From positions 1 to 64,000 of the forward strand of contig JADLHZ010000040.1 in the NCBI GenBank assembly GCA_020848545.1: 64,000 nucleotides of DNA, in the 5' to 3' direction. Source of the stretch: Deltaproteobacteria bacterium. Its GTDB lineage: Bacteria; Myxococcota; JADLHZ01. Shown piece by piece: positions 3,766 through 38,066 of this stretch. The first letter of the stretch is position 1. Each line of letters begins with the position of its first letter. Under the pieces are notes generated by a model. It saw only the letters and a list, made by a program, of their open reading frames with translations, was not told where the DNA came from and ran no database searches. A program made the translations under genes and the position numbers.

Positions 3766-5679
<1,914 letters not shown>

Positions 5680-10342: not shown

Positions 10343-10873
10343 ATGGTGAAGGTCACAACGCCCGAGAGCAGCACGACGAAGCCGCAGGACGCCACCCCCG
10401 TCCGCACTCCCATCCGCGCGCTGTACGGCGTCTTCATCAACGACGATCTGCGCCAGTTCCGCAGCGACCTGAGCCAGACGGTGGAGGTGCTCGAGACCGC
10501 GCTCGAAGACGGTGATCGCGACATCCAAGGCGCCAAGGACAAGCGCCTCGCCGAGGGCGCGATCAAGGCGTTGAAGCAGGCGATCGAAGAGCTGCGCATC
10601 GGCAGCCCGAAGAAGAGTGGATCGGTGGCGGCGATGGCCTCGGCGGCAAGCGCGAAGGAGCCCGAGCCGATCAACGTCGTGCGCCCGCTCTACGGCGTGT
10701 TCATCCAGACGCAGGTCGACAAGGCGAAGACGCAGATCACGAGCGAGATCGCCGAGATCAAAGAAGCGGTGAAGCAGAAGAAGATCCCGAAGGGTGAAGG
10801 CGACGACGTGCAGCGCGCCTTGAAAGATCTGCAAACGGCGCTGAAGAAGCTCGAAAAAATCCAGACCAACTGA
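10343..10873 (+). CDS. Duplicated LYGVFI-motif protein, candidate radical SAM substrate
   Basis: A 176-residue hydrophilic protein made of two homologous halves. Each begins with a near-identical motif: RALYGVFI at 25-32 and RPLYGVFI at 114-121. Each motif is followed by a charged amphipathic helix of about 55 residues (residues 33-86 and 122-175). An Ala/Ser-rich linker (about 87-110) joins them. AAGGAT 7-12 nt upstream of the ATG is a good ribosome site. It lies 32 bp before a radical SAM/SPASM maturase. The L-Y-G tripeptide matches the XYG site processed by PlpX/PcpX-type spliceases, which excise a tyramine equivalent and leave an alpha-keto-beta-amino residue. Acting as that substrate is an inference from motif and context. 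It has no signal peptide and no Cys. Confidence 0.7.
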   Translation: MVKVTTPESSTTKPQDATPVRTPIRALYGVFINDDLRQFRSDLSQTVEVLETALEDGDRDIQGAKDKRLAEGAIKALKQAIEELRIGSPKKSGSVAAMASAASAKEPEPINVVRPLYGVFIQTQVDKAKTQITSEIAEIKEAVKQKKIPKGEGDDVQRALKDLQTALKKLEKIQTN

Positions 10874-10905
10874 TTGCGCGACCGAGTCGCCGTCTAAGGT
10901 TCCGC

Positions 10906-12156
10906 ATGGGCGAAAAGCGCTACGTCGACGACCGAGACCTCAGCGTCTGTAAGCCGATCTACGCCGTTTGGGAGATCACGCTGAAGTGCGACTTGAGCTG
11001 CGCGCACTGCGGCTCCCGCGCCGGCAGCGCCCGGGTCGAAGAGCTGTCGACCGCCGAGTGCTTGGACATCGTGCGCCAACTCGCCGCGATGGGCTGCCGC
11101 GAGGTCACGATCATCGGCGGCGAAGCGTACCTGCGCAAGGACTGGACCACGATCATCAAAGCGATCCGCGACGCCGGCATGGACGCGTCGATGACGACGG
11201 GCGGCAAGAACCTCACCGAGAAGCGCGTCGTCGACGCGGCGCGCGCCGGCCTGCAGCAAGTGTCGGTGTCGGTCGACGGCTTGGAAGACGTGCACGATCA
11301 GATCCGCGGCGTGAGCGGCTCCTACGCCGCGGCGATGCGATCGATCGCGCTCTTGAAGCAGCACGGCATCAAGGTCGGCGTGAACAGCCAGATCAACGCG
11401 CTGTCGATGCCGCAGCTTCCGGAGATCATGGAGCGCATCATCGCTGCCGGCGCCGTCGGTTGGCAGCTCCAGCTCACCGTCGCGATGGGCAACGCCGTGG
11501 AAAATCCGGAGCTCCTGCTGCAGCCGTACGAGCTGCTCACGCTGATGCCGACGCTCGCCGAGCTCTACGACAGCGGCACCGCCCGCGGCCTGACGATCGT
11601 GCCGGGCAACAACATCGGTTACTTCGGGCCCTACGAGCGGCTCTGGCGCGGCGGTCCCGACGGCCAAGGCCACTGGATCGGCTGCAACGCCGGCCAGAAC
11701 ACGATCGGCCTCGAAGCCGACGGCACGATCAAAGGCTGTCCGTCGCTGCCGACCGCCGAATACTCGGGCGGCAACATCAGAGATCTCAGCCTCGAAGAGA
11801 TCTGGCGGCACAGCGCCGCGCTGCGCTTCGCGCGGGAGCGCACCGTCGATGATCTCTCAGGGCACTGCCGCACGTGCTACTACGCGGACCTTTGCCGTGG
11901 CGGCTGCTCGTGGACGACGCACGCGCTCTTCGGCAAGCCCGGCAACAATCCGTACTGCCACTACCGCGCGCTGCAGCTCGAGAAGCGCGGCCTGCGCGAG
12001 CGCGTGGTCAAGGTGAAGGACGCGCCCGGCCTCCCCTTCGATCGCGGCGAGTTCGCGCTCGTCGAAGAAGCGATCGACGCCGAGGTGTCTCGCCCGATGC
12101 CACAGGAGCTGCGGAGCCCACGCAGCGTGCGTTCCGCGCTGACCGTGCTGCCGTGA
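10906..12156 (+). CDS. Radical SAM/SPASM peptide maturase (splicease-like candidate)
   Basis: A 416-residue radical SAM enzyme. The SAM-binding cluster motif C28-x3-C32-x2-C35 sits in ITLKCDLSCAHCGSR, followed by a GGEAYLRKDW glycine motif near 71-80. The SPASM extension is complete: C260 and C278 flank NAGQNTIGLEADGTIKG, then C321-x2-C324-x5-C330-x3-C334, then C351. These bind auxiliary 4Fe-4S clusters, as in anSME, MftC and RiPP maturases. No RRE (PqqD-like) domain precedes the barrel; only about 15 residues lie before the core. It sits between the duplicated LYG-motif protein and a zinc-ribbon protein whose GTG overlaps its stop, so all three are probably co-expressed. Enzyme class is secure; the reaction is inferred. 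Confidence 0.92.
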   Translation: MGEKRYVDDRDLSVCKPIYAVWEITLKCDLSCAHCGSRAGSARVEELSTAECLDIVRQLAAMGCREVTIIGGEAYLRKDWTTIIKAIRDAGMDASMTTGGKNLTEKRVVDAARAGLQQVSVSVDGLEDVHDQIRGVSGSYAAAMRSIALLKQHGIKVGVNSQINALSMPQLPEIMERIIAAGAVGWQLQLTVAMGNAVENPELLLQPYELLTLMPTLAELYDSGTARGLTIVPGNNIGYFGPYERLWRGGPDGQGHWIGCNAGQNTIGLEADGTIKGCPSLPTAEYSGGNIRDLSLEEIWRHSAALRFARERTVDDLSGHCRTCYYADLCRGGCSWTTHALFGKPGNNPYCHYRALQLEKRGLRERVVKVKDAPGLPFDRGEFALVEEAIDAEVSRPMPQELRSPRSVRSALTVLP

Positions 12157-12347
12157 CCGACATCCCCGGCCGCGTGCCGCCGCGCCTCGAGCTCTGCCCG
12201 CGTTGCAGCGAGCACATTTACGCCGGCACCAATCTCTGCCCGCACTGCGGCGGCGAGGTGCCAGCGTTGCTCGCCGCGCGCGAAGAAGCGATCGCAGAGG
12301 CGCTCGACGCGCTGCAAAGGCTCGAAGCCGCGCTCGCGCTTTCCTAG
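12153..12347 (+). CDS. Small zinc-ribbon protein coupled to the radical SAM gene
   Basis: A 64-residue protein beginning at a GTG that overlaps the maturase stop (GTGA at 12153-12156), which implies translational coupling. Two Cys pairs form a zinc ribbon, CPRC near residue 16 and CPHCGG near residue 31, with a short loop between. The C-terminal half is an amphipathic Ala/Glu/Leu helix (LLAAREEAIAEALDALQR). Its position suggests an accessory or substrate-binding partner of the maturase, in the place where splicease operons carry an RRE-type partner. It shows no PqqD-like sequence that I can recognise. The role is inferred from context only. Confidence 0.7.
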   Translation: MTDIPGRVPPRLELCPRCSEHIYAGTNLCPHCGGEVPALLAAREEAIAEALDALQRLEAALALS

Positions 12348-12433: not shown

Positions 12434-12784
12434 CTACTTCTTCTTCGGCTCGGCCTTCGCCCCGTCGCCGCGCACGACGAACAAGCGCGTCTGATTGTTG
12501 ATCTCGTAGATGTTGATCCCGACCCAATTCCCCGGCGTCGGCTTCAAGTTCTGCAGGTGCACGGCCTTCACCGACGGCGCGTTGATGATCGCGCGAAAGC
12601 GGATCGCGCCGCTCCCCTTGTACAGCTTCTCGTAGAACTCGATGGTGTCGTCGTAATTGCGCGGCGAGACGTAGCGGGCGTCTTCGATCTTGCGCGCGTT
12701 CGGCACGATCGGCGCGCCGTAGACCCGCTCGCCCTCGGACTCGGCGCCGAGCAGCAGCAAGGAGAAGGTGGCGGCGAAAAGCAT
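12434..12784 (-). CDS. Small exported protein, function unknown
   Basis: A 116-residue protein with a short Sec signal (MLFAATFSLLLLGAES). The mature part is a compact beta-rich domain with APIVPNARKIEDARYVSPRN and AIRFRAIINAPSVKAVHL, ending in a Lys-rich tail. I recognise no named family. The frame extends upstream to 12820, but the ATG at 12784 opens the signal peptide and leaves room for the divergent ABC gene at 12807. The 22 bp between the starts must hold overlapping promoter elements. Confidence 0.65.
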   Translation of the reverse strand: MLFAATFSLLLLGAESEGERVYGAPIVPNARKIEDARYVSPRNYDDTIEFYEKLYKGSGAIRFRAIINAPSVKAVHLQNLKPTPGNWVGINIYEINNQTRLFVVRGDGAKAEPKKK

Positions 12785-12806
12785 TCTGTGGTGTCTACCT
12801 TCGTCA

Positions 12807-13649
12807 GTGTCGATCCTCAAGACTTCGAAGCTCGAGAAACGCTATCAAAAGACCGCCGTCGTCGACGCCCTCGACCTCGCGATCGCCCCGGGCGACATCT
12901 ACGGCTTCCTTGGCCCGAACGGTGCTGGCAAGACCACGACCATCCGCATGCTGATGGGGATCATCGCGGCGGACAGCGGCACCATCGAGCTCTTCGGAAA
13001 AACGCGGCGCCGCCCGACGAACGAGGACAAGCGCCAGATCGGCTACGTGTCGCAGGACCAACACTTCTACCCATGGATGAGCGGCGACGATCTCGCGCGC
13101 TTCGTCGGCGCGTTCTACCCCACCTGGGATCGTGGCGAGTTCGATCGGCTGACGCGGCGCCTCGAGCTGCCCGTCGATCGCAAGGCGTCGCAGCTCTCGC
13201 GCGGCATGCAGGTGAAGCTCGCGCTGGCGTTGGCCCTCGCGCACCGGCCGGCGCTCTTGATCCTCGACGAGCCGACGTCCGGCCTCGATCCGCTCACCCG
13301 CCGCGAGTTCTTGGATCTCATCCGCGCGCAGGCCAAGAGCGACGGCAGGACGACCTTCTTCTCGTCACACATCATCGAGGATCTCGAAGGCACCGCGAAT
13401 CGGATCGGCATCTTGAAGAACGGCCGCCTCCTCTACCAGGGCGCGCCGGAGACGCTGTGCCGCGAGATCCGCCGGGTGCCGAACGCGCCGGAGCTCGGCG
13501 TTCCCGAGGGCTTCACGGTGATCGGCGCCGATGAGCGTGGCACCCTCCTGCGCGCGCCCGAGGCCCTGTGGCCCGTCGATGTCGGCGAGCCGCTCGAGCT
13601 CGAAGCGGCCTTCGTCGCGCTGGTGCGGAGCACGTCTCGCCCGTCATGA
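12807..13649 (+). CDS. ABC transporter ATP-binding protein
   Basis: A 280-residue ABC-2-type ATPase. Visible motifs are Walker A GPNGAGKTT (about residues 36-44), the Q-loop region GYVSQDQHFYPW, the signature LSRGMQVKLALALAL, Walker B LLILDEPTSGLDP and the H-loop FFSSHIIEDLE. The C-terminal extension (GAPETLCREIRR onward) is typical of drug, lipid or NatA-like exporters. I chose the GTG at 12807 since the ATG at 12768 would sit inside the divergent gene. Its stop overlaps the ATG of the first permease (ATGA at 13646-13649). It energises the two permeases that follow. Confidence 0.93.
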   Translation: MSILKTSKLEKRYQKTAVVDALDLAIAPGDIYGFLGPNGAGKTTTIRMLMGIIAADSGTIELFGKTRRRPTNEDKRQIGYVSQDQHFYPWMSGDDLARFVGAFYPTWDRGEFDRLTRRLELPVDRKASQLSRGMQVKLALALALAHRPALLILDEPTSGLDPLTRREFLDLIRAQAKSDGRTTFFSSHIIEDLEGTANRIGILKNGRLLYQGAPETLCREIRRVPNAPELGVPEGFTVIGADERGTLLRAPEALWPVDVGEPLELEAAFVALVRSTSRPS

Positions 13650-15529
13650 TCCGCGCGTTCATTCGCAAGGAGCTGCAGCAACACGGCACCTACGTTGCCG
13701 TCGCGACCTCGCTCGCCGCGCTGATCGTGCTCCTCGACGCCTTCAGCGAGCTCTCCCACGATCCGAGCCTCGACGCGTTTGCTGCGGGGCGCGGCGGCCT
13801 GCGCATCGCGCTCGTCGTCGTGGCGCTCGTCGTCTCCAGCCGGCTCGTGAGGAAGGAGTACGCGGAGAAGACCCAGCTCTTCCTCGAAGCCCTGCCGCTC
13901 TCGCGGGCGCACATGGTGCTGATGAAGGCCGGCATCGGCCTCGCGCACGTCCTCGCGTGCGGCGGCGCGTTCACCGCGATCGCCTTCCTCGTCGAGCGCC
14001 GAAACCCGCTCCTCACCGCCGCCTTCGTCGCGCAGCTCGGCGCCCGCATCCTCGCCTTCGCCACCGCGGCCTACGGCGTCTGCTTCCTGCTCGGCTTCTT
14101 CGGCCGCTACCGGGTGCCGATCGTCATCGCGACGGCGCTCGCGCTCATCTACTTGAACGATCGCACCACCTTCGACGTGTTGCGCGTGGGGCCGTTCGCG
14201 CTGATGGACGAGACCTTCGCCACCGAGCGTGGGGCGTGGCCGGCGCGCGCGTTGTTGATCTCTCTGGCGATCGGCGTGGGCGCCCTCGCCGTCAGCGTGC
14301 TCCTCGCCAGCCTGCGCGAAGGCTCGCTCGCGGCGATGCTCGGCGAAAAAATGTCACGCCGAGAGGCGATGTTCTTCGTCGTCGCGATCTTGTTCGGCGC
14401 CAGCGCGATCTTTGCGGCCACACCGAAGAAAGCGCGCGAGCCGTTCACGCTCGCCAGCGCGGCGCCGGCCGAGGGAGGCGGCGTCCGCGTTCGCGTCGCC
14501 GATCTCGCGGGGCGCACCGAGGCCGACCAGACGATCGCCGAGTCCCTGCGCACGTCGCTCGCTGCGGCCGCGCGCGCGCTCGACATCGCGGAGCTCCCAC
14601 CCGTCTTCGTCACCGGCCGCGACGATCTCGATCCGGCGCTGGTCGAGGTCGACCTCTTGCCCGACAATGAAGGCGTCATCGTCCGCGGCGACTACCCGAA
14701 CCCGCGCTTCGATCGCACGCGCCTCTTCTGCGCCGCGCTTCACCACGCGCTCGTGCTGCATAGCGGCGGCCGCCTGTTCATCGAAGAGACGCATTGGTTG
14801 CTCGACGGCTTTTCGCGTTACTTCGTCCTGTCGGGCGGCGCGGGGGAGATCGACGGCGCCGTCCGTGATCGCGGCGCGCTGCGCGTCCTCTACGCGAAGG
14901 ATCTCGGGCTCTCGGCGCAAGACTTCGATCGCTGGAGCGCGTATCGCGAGCGCGTCGGCGACGATCTCGGCGAGGCCGTCGCGGCGTCGCTGCTGCTCCA
15001 CTTGCGCGAGCGCTACGGCGAAGCGAGCGTGACGGCGCTAGCGCGGACCGTGCTCGGCCGGCAGGTGCCGAAGGACTTTCGCGCGCTCTTCGATCGGCGG
15101 CGGAACGCGCCGCGCCGGCTCATCGAAGCGGCCACAAAGCGCTCGTTCGAAGCGATCGTCGCCGACTGGCTCGCGGCCCTGGAGCTGACCCGGTCGCCCC
15201 TCGCCGCCGCGCTGGCCCGCATCCCCCGCTTCGCCGGCGCGCCGCGCATCGACGCCCGGGGCAAGAGCGATCGGCAGATCCGCTTCGACCTCGCGCTCGC
15301 TCCGCTGCCGCGCCGCGTGCGCTTGTACTACCAGACGATCGATCCGCTGACTGGTGAGCTCTCGCGCGAGACCATGCGCCGCGTCGACAAGGTTGCGACC
15401 GCGGCCAGCGACTACGATCTCGGCGAGACCTTTCAACGCGGCCAGGTCGTGTTCGTCGACGCCGCCGCGCACTCGGACGCGCTCGACTGCGAGGTCTCGC
15501 TCGGCGGCCGCCGGCTGGTGCTCGAATGA
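13646..15529 (+). CDS. ABC-2 permease fused to a degenerate gluzincin-like domain
   Basis: A 627-residue protein. Residues 1-260 hold about six hydrophobic segments of an ABC-2 permease (LIVLLDAF, VVVALVVSS, VAILFGASAIFA). The following periplasmic part resembles an M1/M61-type peptidase, but the metal site is gone: where the paralogue has HETAH there is HHALV (366-370), and where it has HEGLANY there is LLDGFSRYF (385-393). A C-terminal beta domain closes the protein. Start ATG 13646 overlaps the ATPase stop, and its own stop overlaps the next permease (ATGA at 15526). It probably pairs with that active-site-containing paralogue as a heterodimeric membrane unit. Confidence 0.83.
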   Translation: MIRAFIRKELQQHGTYVAVATSLAALIVLLDAFSELSHDPSLDAFAAGRGGLRIALVVVALVVSSRLVRKEYAEKTQLFLEALPLSRAHMVLMKAGIGLAHVLACGGAFTAIAFLVERRNPLLTAAFVAQLGARILAFATAAYGVCFLLGFFGRYRVPIVIATALALIYLNDRTTFDVLRVGPFALMDETFATERGAWPARALLISLAIGVGALAVSVLLASLREGSLAAMLGEKMSRREAMFFVVAILFGASAIFAATPKKAREPFTLASAAPAEGGGVRVRVADLAGRTEADQTIAESLRTSLAAAARALDIAELPPVFVTGRDDLDPALVEVDLLPDNEGVIVRGDYPNPRFDRTRLFCAALHHALVLHSGGRLFIEETHWLLDGFSRYFVLSGGAGEIDGAVRDRGALRVLYAKDLGLSAQDFDRWSAYRERVGDDLGEAVAASLLLHLRERYGEASVTALARTVLGRQVPKDFRALFDRRRNAPRRLIEAATKRSFEAIVADWLAALELTRSPLAAALARIPRFAGAPRIDARGKSDRQIRFDLALAPLPRRVRLYYQTIDPLTGELSRETMRRVDKVATAASDYDLGETFQRGQVVFVDAAAHSDALDCEVSLGGRRLVLE

Positions 15530-17565
15530 GCGGCTTCCTCGCGCTGTCCCGAAAAGAGCTTCGCCTGCTGCGCACCTACGCCGTCTTCCTGGCGGCGATC
15601 ATCGGCTTCGACGCGCTCTCGACGCTCCTCTTCTCCTATCCCGACCAGCACACCCCGGATCGGCCCGGGCTCTTCTCGGCGGCGATCGGCCTCTTCTTCG
15701 TCTACTTCATCGTCCAGGGCGTCGCCGCGCAGGACGACGACCACCAGACCAAAGAGCTCGTGTTCGCGCTGCCGACGCCGCGCTCCACGATCTTCTTCGC
15801 GAAGATCGCGGCGGTCGTGCTGCTGCTCGTCGCGGCCGATGCGCTCGATCAATCGATCGACTACGTCTTCGCCGTGTGGTCGCGCACCTCGGCCGCGATC
15901 CCGCTCGGCCCTACGCACTGGCTGCGCCTGTTCTTCGTGAACGCGTGGCAAACGGCGTGCTTCGTCTGCATCGCGTTCTTCTTCGCCGGCTTTCGTCAGC
16001 TCGGATGGCCGCTCGTCGCCGCGTGCATCGCCGCCTTCGCCCTCGCCGCCGAGCTCCGCCCAGACCTCGCGATCCTGAACCCGCTGACGATCGTCCAGTA
16101 CGACTTCGACGGGCTTTCGCTCATCATTCCGTGGAAGAAGCTGTGGGCCACGGGCGGCCTCTCGCTCGGCCTCGGGGTCGTCGCCGGCGCGCTCTTCGTG
16201 CTCGATCCCGACACCCTGGCCGGCGCCCTCGACCGCTTCAAGCGGAGCCGCTGGAGCACGGCGCTCGTCCTCGCGCTCTTCTTCGCGAGCGTCGCCCTGC
16301 TCGTGCCGGTGCTCGGGCCGTGGGCGAAGGAGAGCGGGCCGAAGAGCCAGAGCAGCATCGCCGAAGGCGAACAGTGGGCCAAAGTGCGGGCCATGACCGA
16401 GCGCTACCTGTTCTCGTATCCGGCGAACGAGCACGCGCGCGCCGCGCCGCTGCTCGAAGCGGCCGACGCGGTCTACGCCGACGTGCGCGCGGTCTTCGGC
16501 AAGGACGCCGGCGCGTTGATCGCTGTCGACCTCGGCGGCTCGCGCGAGGGCACGCTTGGCACCACCCATTGGACGGAGGTGCACATCGACTTTTCGCAGC
16601 ACGACACGCTCGCCGCTCAGAAGGAGACGCTCGCGCACGAGACCGCGCACGTCTTCATCAGCGTGCTCGCGGACCGCCGCTTGGACGATCGCTTCGCCGA
16701 CGCCCGCTTCTTTCACGAAGGCCTCGCGAACTACGTGCAGCTGCAAACGTACGGCACCCCACAGAAGAAGGAGAACCGCCGCTTCGTCGCGTCGGTCCTG
16801 CACGCGCAGCGGCGCGCGCGCTTCGAGCTGCTCATCGACTCTGCGCGGATGACGCGCGACTACGACGCCGAGGACGCGTACACGCTCGGCGGCGAATTCG
16901 TGACGGCGCTCGTCGCGATCTACGGCCAGGGCGCGCCGGCGAAGCTGCTCGAAGCGATCGCCGCAGCGCCCGACTTGCGCGGCGAGAACGGCCCGGCGTT
17001 CTGGCGCGCGGCGTTTCAGGCGGCCGGATTTCAGCTCGACTCCGTCATCGCGCGCTACACGAAGACGCTGGAAGCCGCGCGCGTGGCGAACGAGCAGCGC
17101 ATCGACGCTCTGCCAGCGCTGGCGGCCGGCGTGCGCAAGAGCGACGGTCGCTACTTCGTCGTCTTGGCCGAGGACTTGCCGGAGGAGCTGCGCCTGCGCT
17201 GCCAGGTGCGCCGCTCCGAGCGAGACCCGCCGCACGCCGGGCTCGTGCGCGGCAACAGCGTTTGCGCCGCTCCCAGCGCGGCCGGCGAGAAATCTCTGCA
17301 GTACGCGCTCGGCGTCGAAAGCTCCGACGAGGGCTGGACGATCTTCTCGCCGTGGGTCGACGCGCCGATCGCAAACGTCGAGCCGCTCGACGCCGCCGCT
17401 TGGCGTGAGCTCCATGAGCGCGGCTGCGACAATGGCGACGGCGGCTATTGCTTCGCCGCAGGCGAGGACGCCGAGAAAGCCGGTGAGAACGCCGACGCCA
17501 CCGCCTGGTTCCGCGTCGGCTGCGCGCTCGGCCATACGCAGGCCTGCGTGCGCGCCCCGGAATGA
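15526..17565 (+). CDS. ABC-2 permease fused to a gluzincin (HExxH) domain
   Basis: A 679-residue protein. Residues 1-265 carry about six hydrophobic segments of an ABC-2 permease. The periplasmic region has the zinc site HETAH at 371-375 and a downstream ligand Glu398 in FFHEGLANYV, the M1/M61-like gluzincin pattern. Near the C terminus, GCDNGDGGYCFAAGEDAEKA and GCALGHTQAC resemble one or two Sel1-like repeats. The ABC-permease/peptidase combination resembles Gly-zincin ABC systems in which transport and periplasmic proteolysis are coupled. The third gene of the operon, it is intact where its upstream paralogue is degenerate. The substrate is unknown. Confidence 0.85.
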   Translation: MSGFLALSRKELRLLRTYAVFLAAIIGFDALSTLLFSYPDQHTPDRPGLFSAAIGLFFVYFIVQGVAAQDDDHQTKELVFALPTPRSTIFFAKIAAVVLLLVAADALDQSIDYVFAVWSRTSAAIPLGPTHWLRLFFVNAWQTACFVCIAFFFAGFRQLGWPLVAACIAAFALAAELRPDLAILNPLTIVQYDFDGLSLIIPWKKLWATGGLSLGLGVVAGALFVLDPDTLAGALDRFKRSRWSTALVLALFFASVALLVPVLGPWAKESGPKSQSSIAEGEQWAKVRAMTERYLFSYPANEHARAAPLLEAADAVYADVRAVFGKDAGALIAVDLGGSREGTLGTTHWTEVHIDFSQHDTLAAQKETLAHETAHVFISVLADRRLDDRFADARFFHEGLANYVQLQTYGTPQKKENRRFVASVLHAQRRARFELLIDSARMTRDYDAEDAYTLGGEFVTALVAIYGQGAPAKLLEAIAAAPDLRGENGPAFWRAAFQAAGFQLDSVIARYTKTLEAARVANEQRIDALPALAAGVRKSDGRYFVVLAEDLPEELRLRCQVRRSERDPPHAGLVRGNSVCAAPSAAGEKSLQYALGVESSDEGWTIFSPWVDAPIANVEPLDAAAWRELHERGCDNGDGGYCFAAGEDAEKAGENADATAWFRVGCALGHTQACVRAPE

Positions 17566-27039: not shown

Positions 27040-28077
27040 GTGCCCGGTCATCTCGTCGTCATAGACCGCGCCCCGAGCGAACGCATGCTCGCCGCCCTCG
27101 CCGAAGCCGGCTACAAGGTCACCTTCATCACCACCGAGGCCGATCCTCTGCCGGAGCTGAACGCGCTCTCGAATGCGGACGCCGTCATCATCGCCAGCAC
27201 GCATCCGAACGCCGAGAGGACGGCGAAGACCTTGGCGAAGGTTCGAGCCGATGGCAGCTACGCGCCGATCGTCTGGCTCGCCCGCAGCGACGCGGCGCCG
27301 TTCGTGCTCGACGTCGTCCATGACCCGCCCGACCGAGACGAGCTGCGCCTGCTCGCCTGGATGACCTCGGCTGAACGATCGCGCCGCGCCGAGCGCGACG
27401 CGCGCCGTGAAGCCGGCGACGCCCATCACTTGTCAGACCTCGGCCGCGTCGTCACCCAAGTCGCGCACGAGATCCGAAATCCGCTGACCGCGCTCTCGGC
27501 GAAGCTGCAGTGGCTGAAGCGCAAGGCCTCGAACGAGCCGCAGATCACCACGATGTCGGCGAGCCTGCTCGACGAGGTGGATCGCCTCTCGCGGATGCTG
27601 AGCGAGGTGCTCGAGTACGGACGCTCGCGCACCTACTCGCGGCGCACGACGGCAGAGGTGGCGCAGACGCTGAAGGAGGTCGTCGCGCTCTATCGCGAGA
27701 CCGCCGAAGCCGCGCATGTGCAGCTCGTGCTCGACGCCGAAGACTCGGCGCGCGTGCCCTACCCTTCGGAAGAATTGCACCAAGTGTTTCAGAACCTGCT
27801 CGCCAACGCGATCGACGCGACGCCGCCCGACGAGACCATCCGCATCGCGGTGAGGAAGCGCGAGGGCAAGCTCGACGTCGAGTTCCGCAACCCCGGTCAC
27901 TTGCAGGAGGAGACGCTCGCGCAGATCTTCGAGCTCTTCTTCACGACGAAGCCGAACGGCACCGGCCTCGGCCTGCCGATCGTCAAGCGCATCGTGCGCG
28001 GCGCCGAAGGCGACATCCAAGCGCTCAACGACGGAGCGGACGTCGTCTTTCGGGTGACGCTGCCGCTGTCGGCGTGA
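27040..28077 (+). CDS. Sensor histidine kinase with pseudo-receiver N-terminal domain
   Basis: A 345-residue soluble histidine kinase. Residues 1-110 resemble a receiver domain (HLVVIDRAPSERMLAALAEA), but the usual phospho-acceptor Asp is Ala (NADAVIIASTH), so it is probably non-phosphorylatable. The HisKA helix has His143 in VAHEIRNPLTAL. The ATPase domain shows NLLANAIDATPPDE (N-box) and GTGLGLPIVKRI (G2). No membrane segment is seen. The GTG at 27040 has GGGAGG 10 nt upstream. No response regulator is adjacent. The next gene overlaps its stop (GTGA). Confidence 0.9.
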   Translation: MPGHLVVIDRAPSERMLAALAEAGYKVTFITTEADPLPELNALSNADAVIIASTHPNAERTAKTLAKVRADGSYAPIVWLARSDAAPFVLDVVHDPPDRDELRLLAWMTSAERSRRAERDARREAGDAHHLSDLGRVVTQVAHEIRNPLTALSAKLQWLKRKASNEPQITTMSASLLDEVDRLSRMLSEVLEYGRSRTYSRRTTAEVAQTLKEVVALYRETAEAAHVQLVLDAEDSARVPYPSEELHQVFQNLLANAIDATPPDETIRIAVRKREGKLDVEFRNPGHLQEETLAQIFELFFTTKPNGTGLGLPIVKRIVRGAEGDIQALNDGADVVFRVTLPLSA

Positions 28078-37757: not shown

Positions 37758-38066
37758 ATGTTGAAGCGCAAACGGAAGCCGACCAGTCCAGGTGAGATCT
37801 TGCTTGCAGAGTTTTTGATGCCGATGAAACTCACGCAGAAGCAGCTTGCCGATCACATCGGTTGTGACGTGAAGGTCATCAACCGCGTCGTCAATGGACG
37901 AACGTCTGTGACCGCGGAGACGGCGGTGAAGCTCGCCGCTGCTCTTCGGACAACACCCGATTTTTGGCTCAATGCTCAGAAGGCCGTCGATCTCTTCGAG
38001 GCCGAGCAGCGGCTTGGCAAGCGATTGCCGCGTCCCTTGGAAAGTGGACACATCGTCGCCGGGTGA
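37758..38066 (+). CDS. higA: HigA-type antitoxin (XRE family)
   Basis: A 102-residue protein with a helix-turn-helix (LTQKQLADHIGCDVKVINRV, then VNGRTSVTAETAVKLAAA) and the HigA signature GEILLAEFLMPM, PDFWLNAQ. It neutralises HigB and should repress the operon via the repeated half-sites at 37415-37447. The ATG at 37758 with GGTTGAAG upstream is preferred over an earlier in-frame ATG inside higB. It ends 47 bp before the tRNA gene. Confidence 0.9.
   Translation: MLKRKRKPTSPGEILLAEFLMPMKLTQKQLADHIGCDVKVINRVVNGRTSVTAETAVKLAAALRTTPDFWLNAQKAVDLFEAEQRLGKRLPRPLESGHIVAG

Follow-up and report, generated by a model that had tools for sequence, protein, structure and literature searches.

The locus described here raises two linked questions: whether a small protein carrying the motif RxLYGVFI twice is the substrate of the radical SAM/SPASM enzyme encoded directly after it, and which reaction would take place at the motif. 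Splicing removes C8H9NO (135.0757 Da) at an XYG motif and leaves a ketoamide (PMC10533398), and in the cases studied the ketoamide product inhibits proteases (PMC11117315, PMC10373908). A sequence-only reading of the window (the whole stretch of 64,000 nucleotides analysed) had proposed a new cassette of this kind, in which a zinc ribbon might take over substrate recognition. That reading proved largely right on the logic of the partners and plausible on the chemistry; the enzyme family already has a name.

The three-gene cassette and its two-site protein

The cassette lies on the forward strand, and the open reading frame list bears out both the positions of its three genes and the placement of the small protein directly before the radical SAM/SPASM gene. 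The candidate substrate, a double-YG protein of 176 aa (10343-10873), has an AAAGGA element upstream of its gene and is separated by 32 bases from the maturase gene (10906-12156; 416 aa). On inspection of the reading frames, the maturase stop shares GTGA with the GTG start of a stand-alone zinc ribbon (12153-12347; 64 aa, CPRC...CPHC), an overlap that suggests translational coupling. Genes flanking the cassette in the window had no homologue beside it in seven related loci, some with short flanks, so we take the three genes as the conserved unit. Neighbouring ABC transporter and peptidase-like genes were rejected as members on the same grounds, and no protease or exporter conserved with the cassette was found in these seven loci. 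Just downstream (12768-17565) lie an ABC ATPase and two long membrane proteins with weak ABC-2 and DUF6055 matches, none of them conserved with the cassette. Elsewhere in the window, 3766-5679 encodes an Hsp70/DnaK-like protein with a fused PilZ domain.

The two motif copies, RALYGVFI (10415-10438, residues 25-32, within TPIRALYGVFI) and RPLYGVFI (10682-10705, residues 114-121, within NVVRPLYGVFI), differ at 3 of 24 bases; all six reading frames of the window, some 128,000 residues, contain no other match to R.[LM]YGV. The halves of the protein align end to end in a profile-profile comparison (hhalign, probability 99.3), confirming that the motif sits in duplicated halves. Homologues were present in 5 of 193 genomes searched within the phylum, representing five genera, and in each the gene is directly upstream of the maturase. 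In a parallel search of 195 genomes, the five closest maturases (that of the window and four at 66-69% identity) were confined to the same five genomes. In these searches the conserved two-site YG protein occurred only with window-type maturases.

All five homologues consist of two halves, with an overall identity of only 25-35%. The first half keeps R25, Y28, G29, F31 and I32 invariant, the second Y117, G118 and V119. In the homologues of the window protein the sites read (V/I)RP(M/L)YG(V/I)FI and then (A/P)MYGVV(F/L), or, for the window clade, VRPMYGVFI and AMYGVV. The expectation that LYG would be conserved thus holds for both Y-G pairs, with L or M as the leading residue. Because four homologues from other genera keep both pairs, the motif pair is not a product of chance. 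This duplicated two-site substrate family is new here.

The small protein had no Pfam match above cut-off and no match to PF08898, which was also without a match above cut-off in the whole genome. No convincing PDB relative was found by sequence or by fold (best fold E 0.31). AlphaFold2 predicted two helical hairpins, each starting at Tyr-Gly, from helices at 28-55, 64-83, 117-144 and 153-171; each tyrosine opens a helix after a low-confidence linker, in a model of low overall confidence (pLDDT 60). If this placement is right, splicing would need local unfolding. The tyrosine of a DUF1843 peptide from another locus (L074) was likewise placed at a helix start (pLDDT 64).

The maturase and its relatives

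The maturase scored 581.5 bits against TIGR03913 ("GDL motif peptide-associated maturase", NCBIfam), 10 bits short of the curated cut-off of 591.75. Joined in silico to the zinc ribbon it reached 619.1 bits, above the cut-off and collinear with model positions 5-463, and a close homologue (L006) clears the cut-off on its own at 595.7 bits. The second-best family was TIGR04103 (514.8 bits, below its threshold of 725). A new maturase family is therefore ruled out, and the proposal of a new radical SAM cassette falls with it, enzyme and zinc ribbon together being TIGR03913. The C-terminal zinc ribbon of that family is present as the next, overlapping ORF; an adjacent GDL-motif (DUF1843) peptide is absent. 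TIGR03913-type enzymes, of which 80 loci were kept from one scan, span Pseudomonas, Burkholderia, Chromobacterium, Acidobacteriota, cyanobacteria and Myxococcota.

The GDL/DUF1843 system of this family shares with the window an enzyme and ribbon collinear with the model, a short helical Y-[GA] partner upstream and the cassette arrangement; a DUF1843-like YG protein stands in the same arrangement with the maturase in 76 of 96 loci. The window differs in having two YG sites in duplicated halves, neither GDL motif nor PF08898 match, and the ribbon as its own gene. Against the DUF1843 profile the small protein gave a match of 95%, which fell to 42% once the motif columns were removed, and its full score of 39.8 was only modestly above the best of 20 shuffles (35.1). 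Membership in DUF1843 is thus not established, and common ancestry is at most possible, because the similarity rests mostly on the motif. A DUF1842/DUF1843 protein was called one of unknown function as late as 2024 (PMC10994174). Substrates of the sister clade often have LYA or PYG in place of LYG; many Pseudomonas loci, and L010, L016, L017 and L020, encode such LYA/PYG DUF1843-type partners, often as three paralogues per operon in a fixed set of variants.

In a maximum-likelihood tree, the window enzyme grouped with four enzymes from Myxococcota (97/89), and the nearest neighbours of this clade, its sister group, were the enzymes associated with DUF1843/GDL (100/98 for the union). Outward from this union came L096 and L076, then the TIGR04103-type enzymes L101, L102, L103 and L087, followed by enzymes that adjoin CYG lipoprotein-like partners and finally by enzymes with fused DYG-repeat tails. 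Grouping of the maturase with known spliceases had been anticipated, and in part this stood: nearly every sampled clade adjoins YG-bearing partners. Placement with TIGR04103 itself did not stand, since forcing the window clade together with that family was rejected (AU p = 0.007).

The window enzyme is nonetheless close to the PlpX/PlpY splicease type (IPR026482), which we represent by TIGR04103 on the strength of the family name, nif11-like MYG precursors and what has been published on PlpX (PMC11002830), and not by comparison with the PlpX sequence. The Pleurocapsa plp locus, sought by its tag PIRPLYGLPI, was not found among the loci compared, so PlpX is represented here by TIGR04103 loci from cyanobacteria. 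Identity to TIGR04103-type enzymes is 50.9-55.4%, reaching 55% for L101 and L102, which adjoin nif11-like precursors with MYG sites. All 10 cluster cysteines (radical SAM CxxxCxxC C28, C32 and C35; SPASM C260, C278, C321, C324, C330, C334 and C351) are common to the window enzyme and L101, L102, L103 and L087. Across 42 compared enzymes the three radical SAM and seven SPASM cysteines are conserved, with C334 in 90%.

The precursor sites are also alike. A cyanobacterial nif11-type precursor beside a TIGR04103 enzyme, IIRPLYGVIVWPPVQAMYGVVI (L123), has counterparts in similar pairs elsewhere; with IIRPLYGVIV...QAMYGVVI, the sites of such precursors are nearly those of the window. On both sides an XYG lies in an (I/V)R(P/A)LYGV context, with two sites each; both XYG sites of the window protein are LYG, and the YG is kept in its five homologues. 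PlpXY acts on LYG and MYG and does not need the leader; among its published tags are GPIRPLYGLPI and several versions of AVAAxYGVVFP, and it accepts an engineered tag derived from PIRPLYGLPI (PMC10533398). The two systems differ in that the PlpX type relies on an RRE partner and on a leader of the nif11 or nitrile-hydratase kind, both missing from the window, which has a protein-size substrate instead of a peptide, and a zinc ribbon. The TIGR04103-like maturase of L103, in a Myxococcaceae MAG, adjoins a precursor-like protein with four PPIAMKYGL(I/V)RPD repeats (1733-2290).

Placement of the zinc ribbon

The separate ribbon matches C-terminal positions 422-465 of the TIGR03913 model, and most homologous loci (73 of the 80 in the set L006-L085) encode enzyme and ribbon as one fused protein. 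The window, L006, L007, L008, L011, L073, L118 and L119 have the ribbon as an ORF of its own next to the enzyme. The window's zinc ribbon is the usual C-terminus of TIGR03913 enzymes, here split off; its presence is no novelty of this cassette, and its separation is a recurring variant. A frameshift artefact is an unlikely cause of the split, as L006, L008 and L011 have the same overlap and L007, L118 and L119 also carry a separate ribbon.

Eight loci (L076, L088, L089, L090, L091, L096, L097 and L110) have no ribbon adjacent to the enzyme; there a CxxC...CxxC ribbon forms the start of the YG partner. A model made from the ribbons of the enzyme side recovered six of the eight (E 2e-7 to 2.5e-3); the partner ribbons of L090 and L110 were recognised by their cysteine pattern alone. 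Searched with the same model, TIGR04103 loci with nif11-like leaders had no zinc ribbon nearby. This pattern of placement, on the enzyme, alone or at the substrate N-terminus, is new here.

Several of these partner-ribbon loci are myxobacterial systems with an ACYG lipoprotein-like partner (L088, L090, L091, L097 and L110). Like the window, they combine a ribbon with a related maturase (identity 45-49% for L091 and L097) and a YG partner encoded directly before it; unlike in the window, the ribbon sits on the partner, at the N-terminus, and after it come a membrane or lipobox-like segment and then CYG. In L088, L089, L090, L091, L097 and L110 this segment ends in (M/S)ACYG and the tails are Asp-rich, so that the partners look like lipoproteins modified at CYG. 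Neither of the two partners searched, those of L091 and L110, had an NCBIfam match.

Family-model searches found no nif11 leader or other leader-family match in the cassette, and the window's contig holds no PqqD domain or PqqD-like RRE partner, as the first reading had noted. Its description of the cassette as unlike known systems fits the missing leader and RRE; it does not fit the zinc ribbon, a normal part of a TIGR03913 enzyme. On another contig of the same genome (C89), some 10 kb separate a radical SAM protein from a PqqD domain (65 bits), at 27186-28073 and 37827-38021, possibly another peptide-modifying locus.

A docking element would be expected to behave in this way: the ribbon can be carried by enzyme or by substrate, and loci with a leader lack it. 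From gene arrangement, the ribbon probably docks the substrate to the enzyme, which supports the suggestion that it replaces the usual recognition partner as a movable module; the argument is tempered by the weakness of the ribbon matches at several loci and by the capacity of small zinc ribbons to evolve more than once. It could instead serve the enzyme structurally or in electron transfer and have become detached from it, a role compatible with splicing and in keeping with its fusion to the enzyme in most relatives and with the common, convergent nature of small zinc ribbons. We consider that role somewhat unlikely: where the enzyme side lacks a ribbon the YG partner starts with one, the enzyme-side model finds most of these, and nif11-leader loci go without.

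Candidate chemistry at the YG sites

The reading that these comparisons lead us to favour, with some confidence, is a leaderless splicease cassette of the protein type, which would splice out tyramine at both sites of a folded substrate. It is the best explanation because the enzyme shares 55% identity with TIGR04103 enzymes and the cyanobacterial sites are nearly identical to those of the window; that two different scaffolds share local sites beside related enzymes adds to its support. The zinc ribbon would dock the small protein to the maturase, which would excise the tyramine part of the tyrosine at each (R)xLYGVFI and join the carbonyl of the preceding leucine to that of the tyrosine. A leucine-derived alpha-keto-beta-amino residue would be left at the start of each helical hairpin, and the product would be a single protein with two reactive ketoamides. 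As known spliceotides are protease inhibitors, this product plausibly is one too, the least certain step. The evidence also supports the earlier suggestion of a protein-type substrate.

Several points count against splicing: the window clade stands apart from TIGR04103, many sister substrates have LYA or PYG, the contig has no PqqD-like RRE, the low-confidence model puts each tyrosine where unfolding would be required, and neither a protease nor an exporter accompanies the cassette in the loci compared. No splicing by a TIGR03913-clade enzyme was found in the literature covered, which did not include Scott et al. 2022 (Chem). With LYA or PYG frequent in DUF1843 substrates, the clade may accept further residues or catalyse a different reaction. 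The same YG sites could undergo cleavage next to the tyrosine without rejoining, a tyrosine crosslink, epimerisation or tyrosine oxidation, had the TIGR03913 clade left splicing and kept the Y. Tyrosine is indeed the sole motif residue never lost in aligned DUF1843-type substrates, in which X and G vary, and the clade's separateness agrees with such a change. We judge it unlikely all the same, given the level of identity to TIGR04103 enzymes with every cluster cysteine in common, and sites in the window clade that are nearer to PlpX-type precursors than to the LYA/PYG ones.

Still less probable is a role for the small protein as scaffold or partner, with the enzyme acting on something encoded elsewhere. 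The protein's size, its mostly helical prediction and the lack of a recognisable leader or cleavage site would suit such a role, yet it co-occurs strictly with the maturase and adjoins it, its two invariant YG sites match precursor sites of a related enzyme type, and its arrangement is that of DUF1843-like YG proteins. Splicing of the small protein itself thus stays our preferred account. A broader form of it, put forward only tentatively, is that there is a splicease superfamily in which a mobile zinc ribbon replaces leader and RRE, that whole folded proteins receive backbone ketoamides, and that the window holds the two-warhead version. A link between the TIGR03913 clade and backbone splicing would give DUF1842/DUF1843 proteins a testable chemistry, would explain why zinc ribbons keep company with these enzymes and would provide a compact, leaderless system for placing ketoamides in folded proteins.

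Related loci show two further features. Three maturases from the same phylum (L093, L094 and L095; 41-44% identical) end in tandem Cys-rich repeats with CDYG(V/I)LPPEV, so their YG sites appear to be fused to the enzyme, which possibly modifies itself. In three distant loci the maturase has as its neighbour a small protein whose motif, DLGSGYGR or DLGCGYGR, resembles that of methyltransferases; it lies just downstream in L077, overlapping the maturase end in L084, and upstream on the other strand in L009; it may be a tailoring enzyme.
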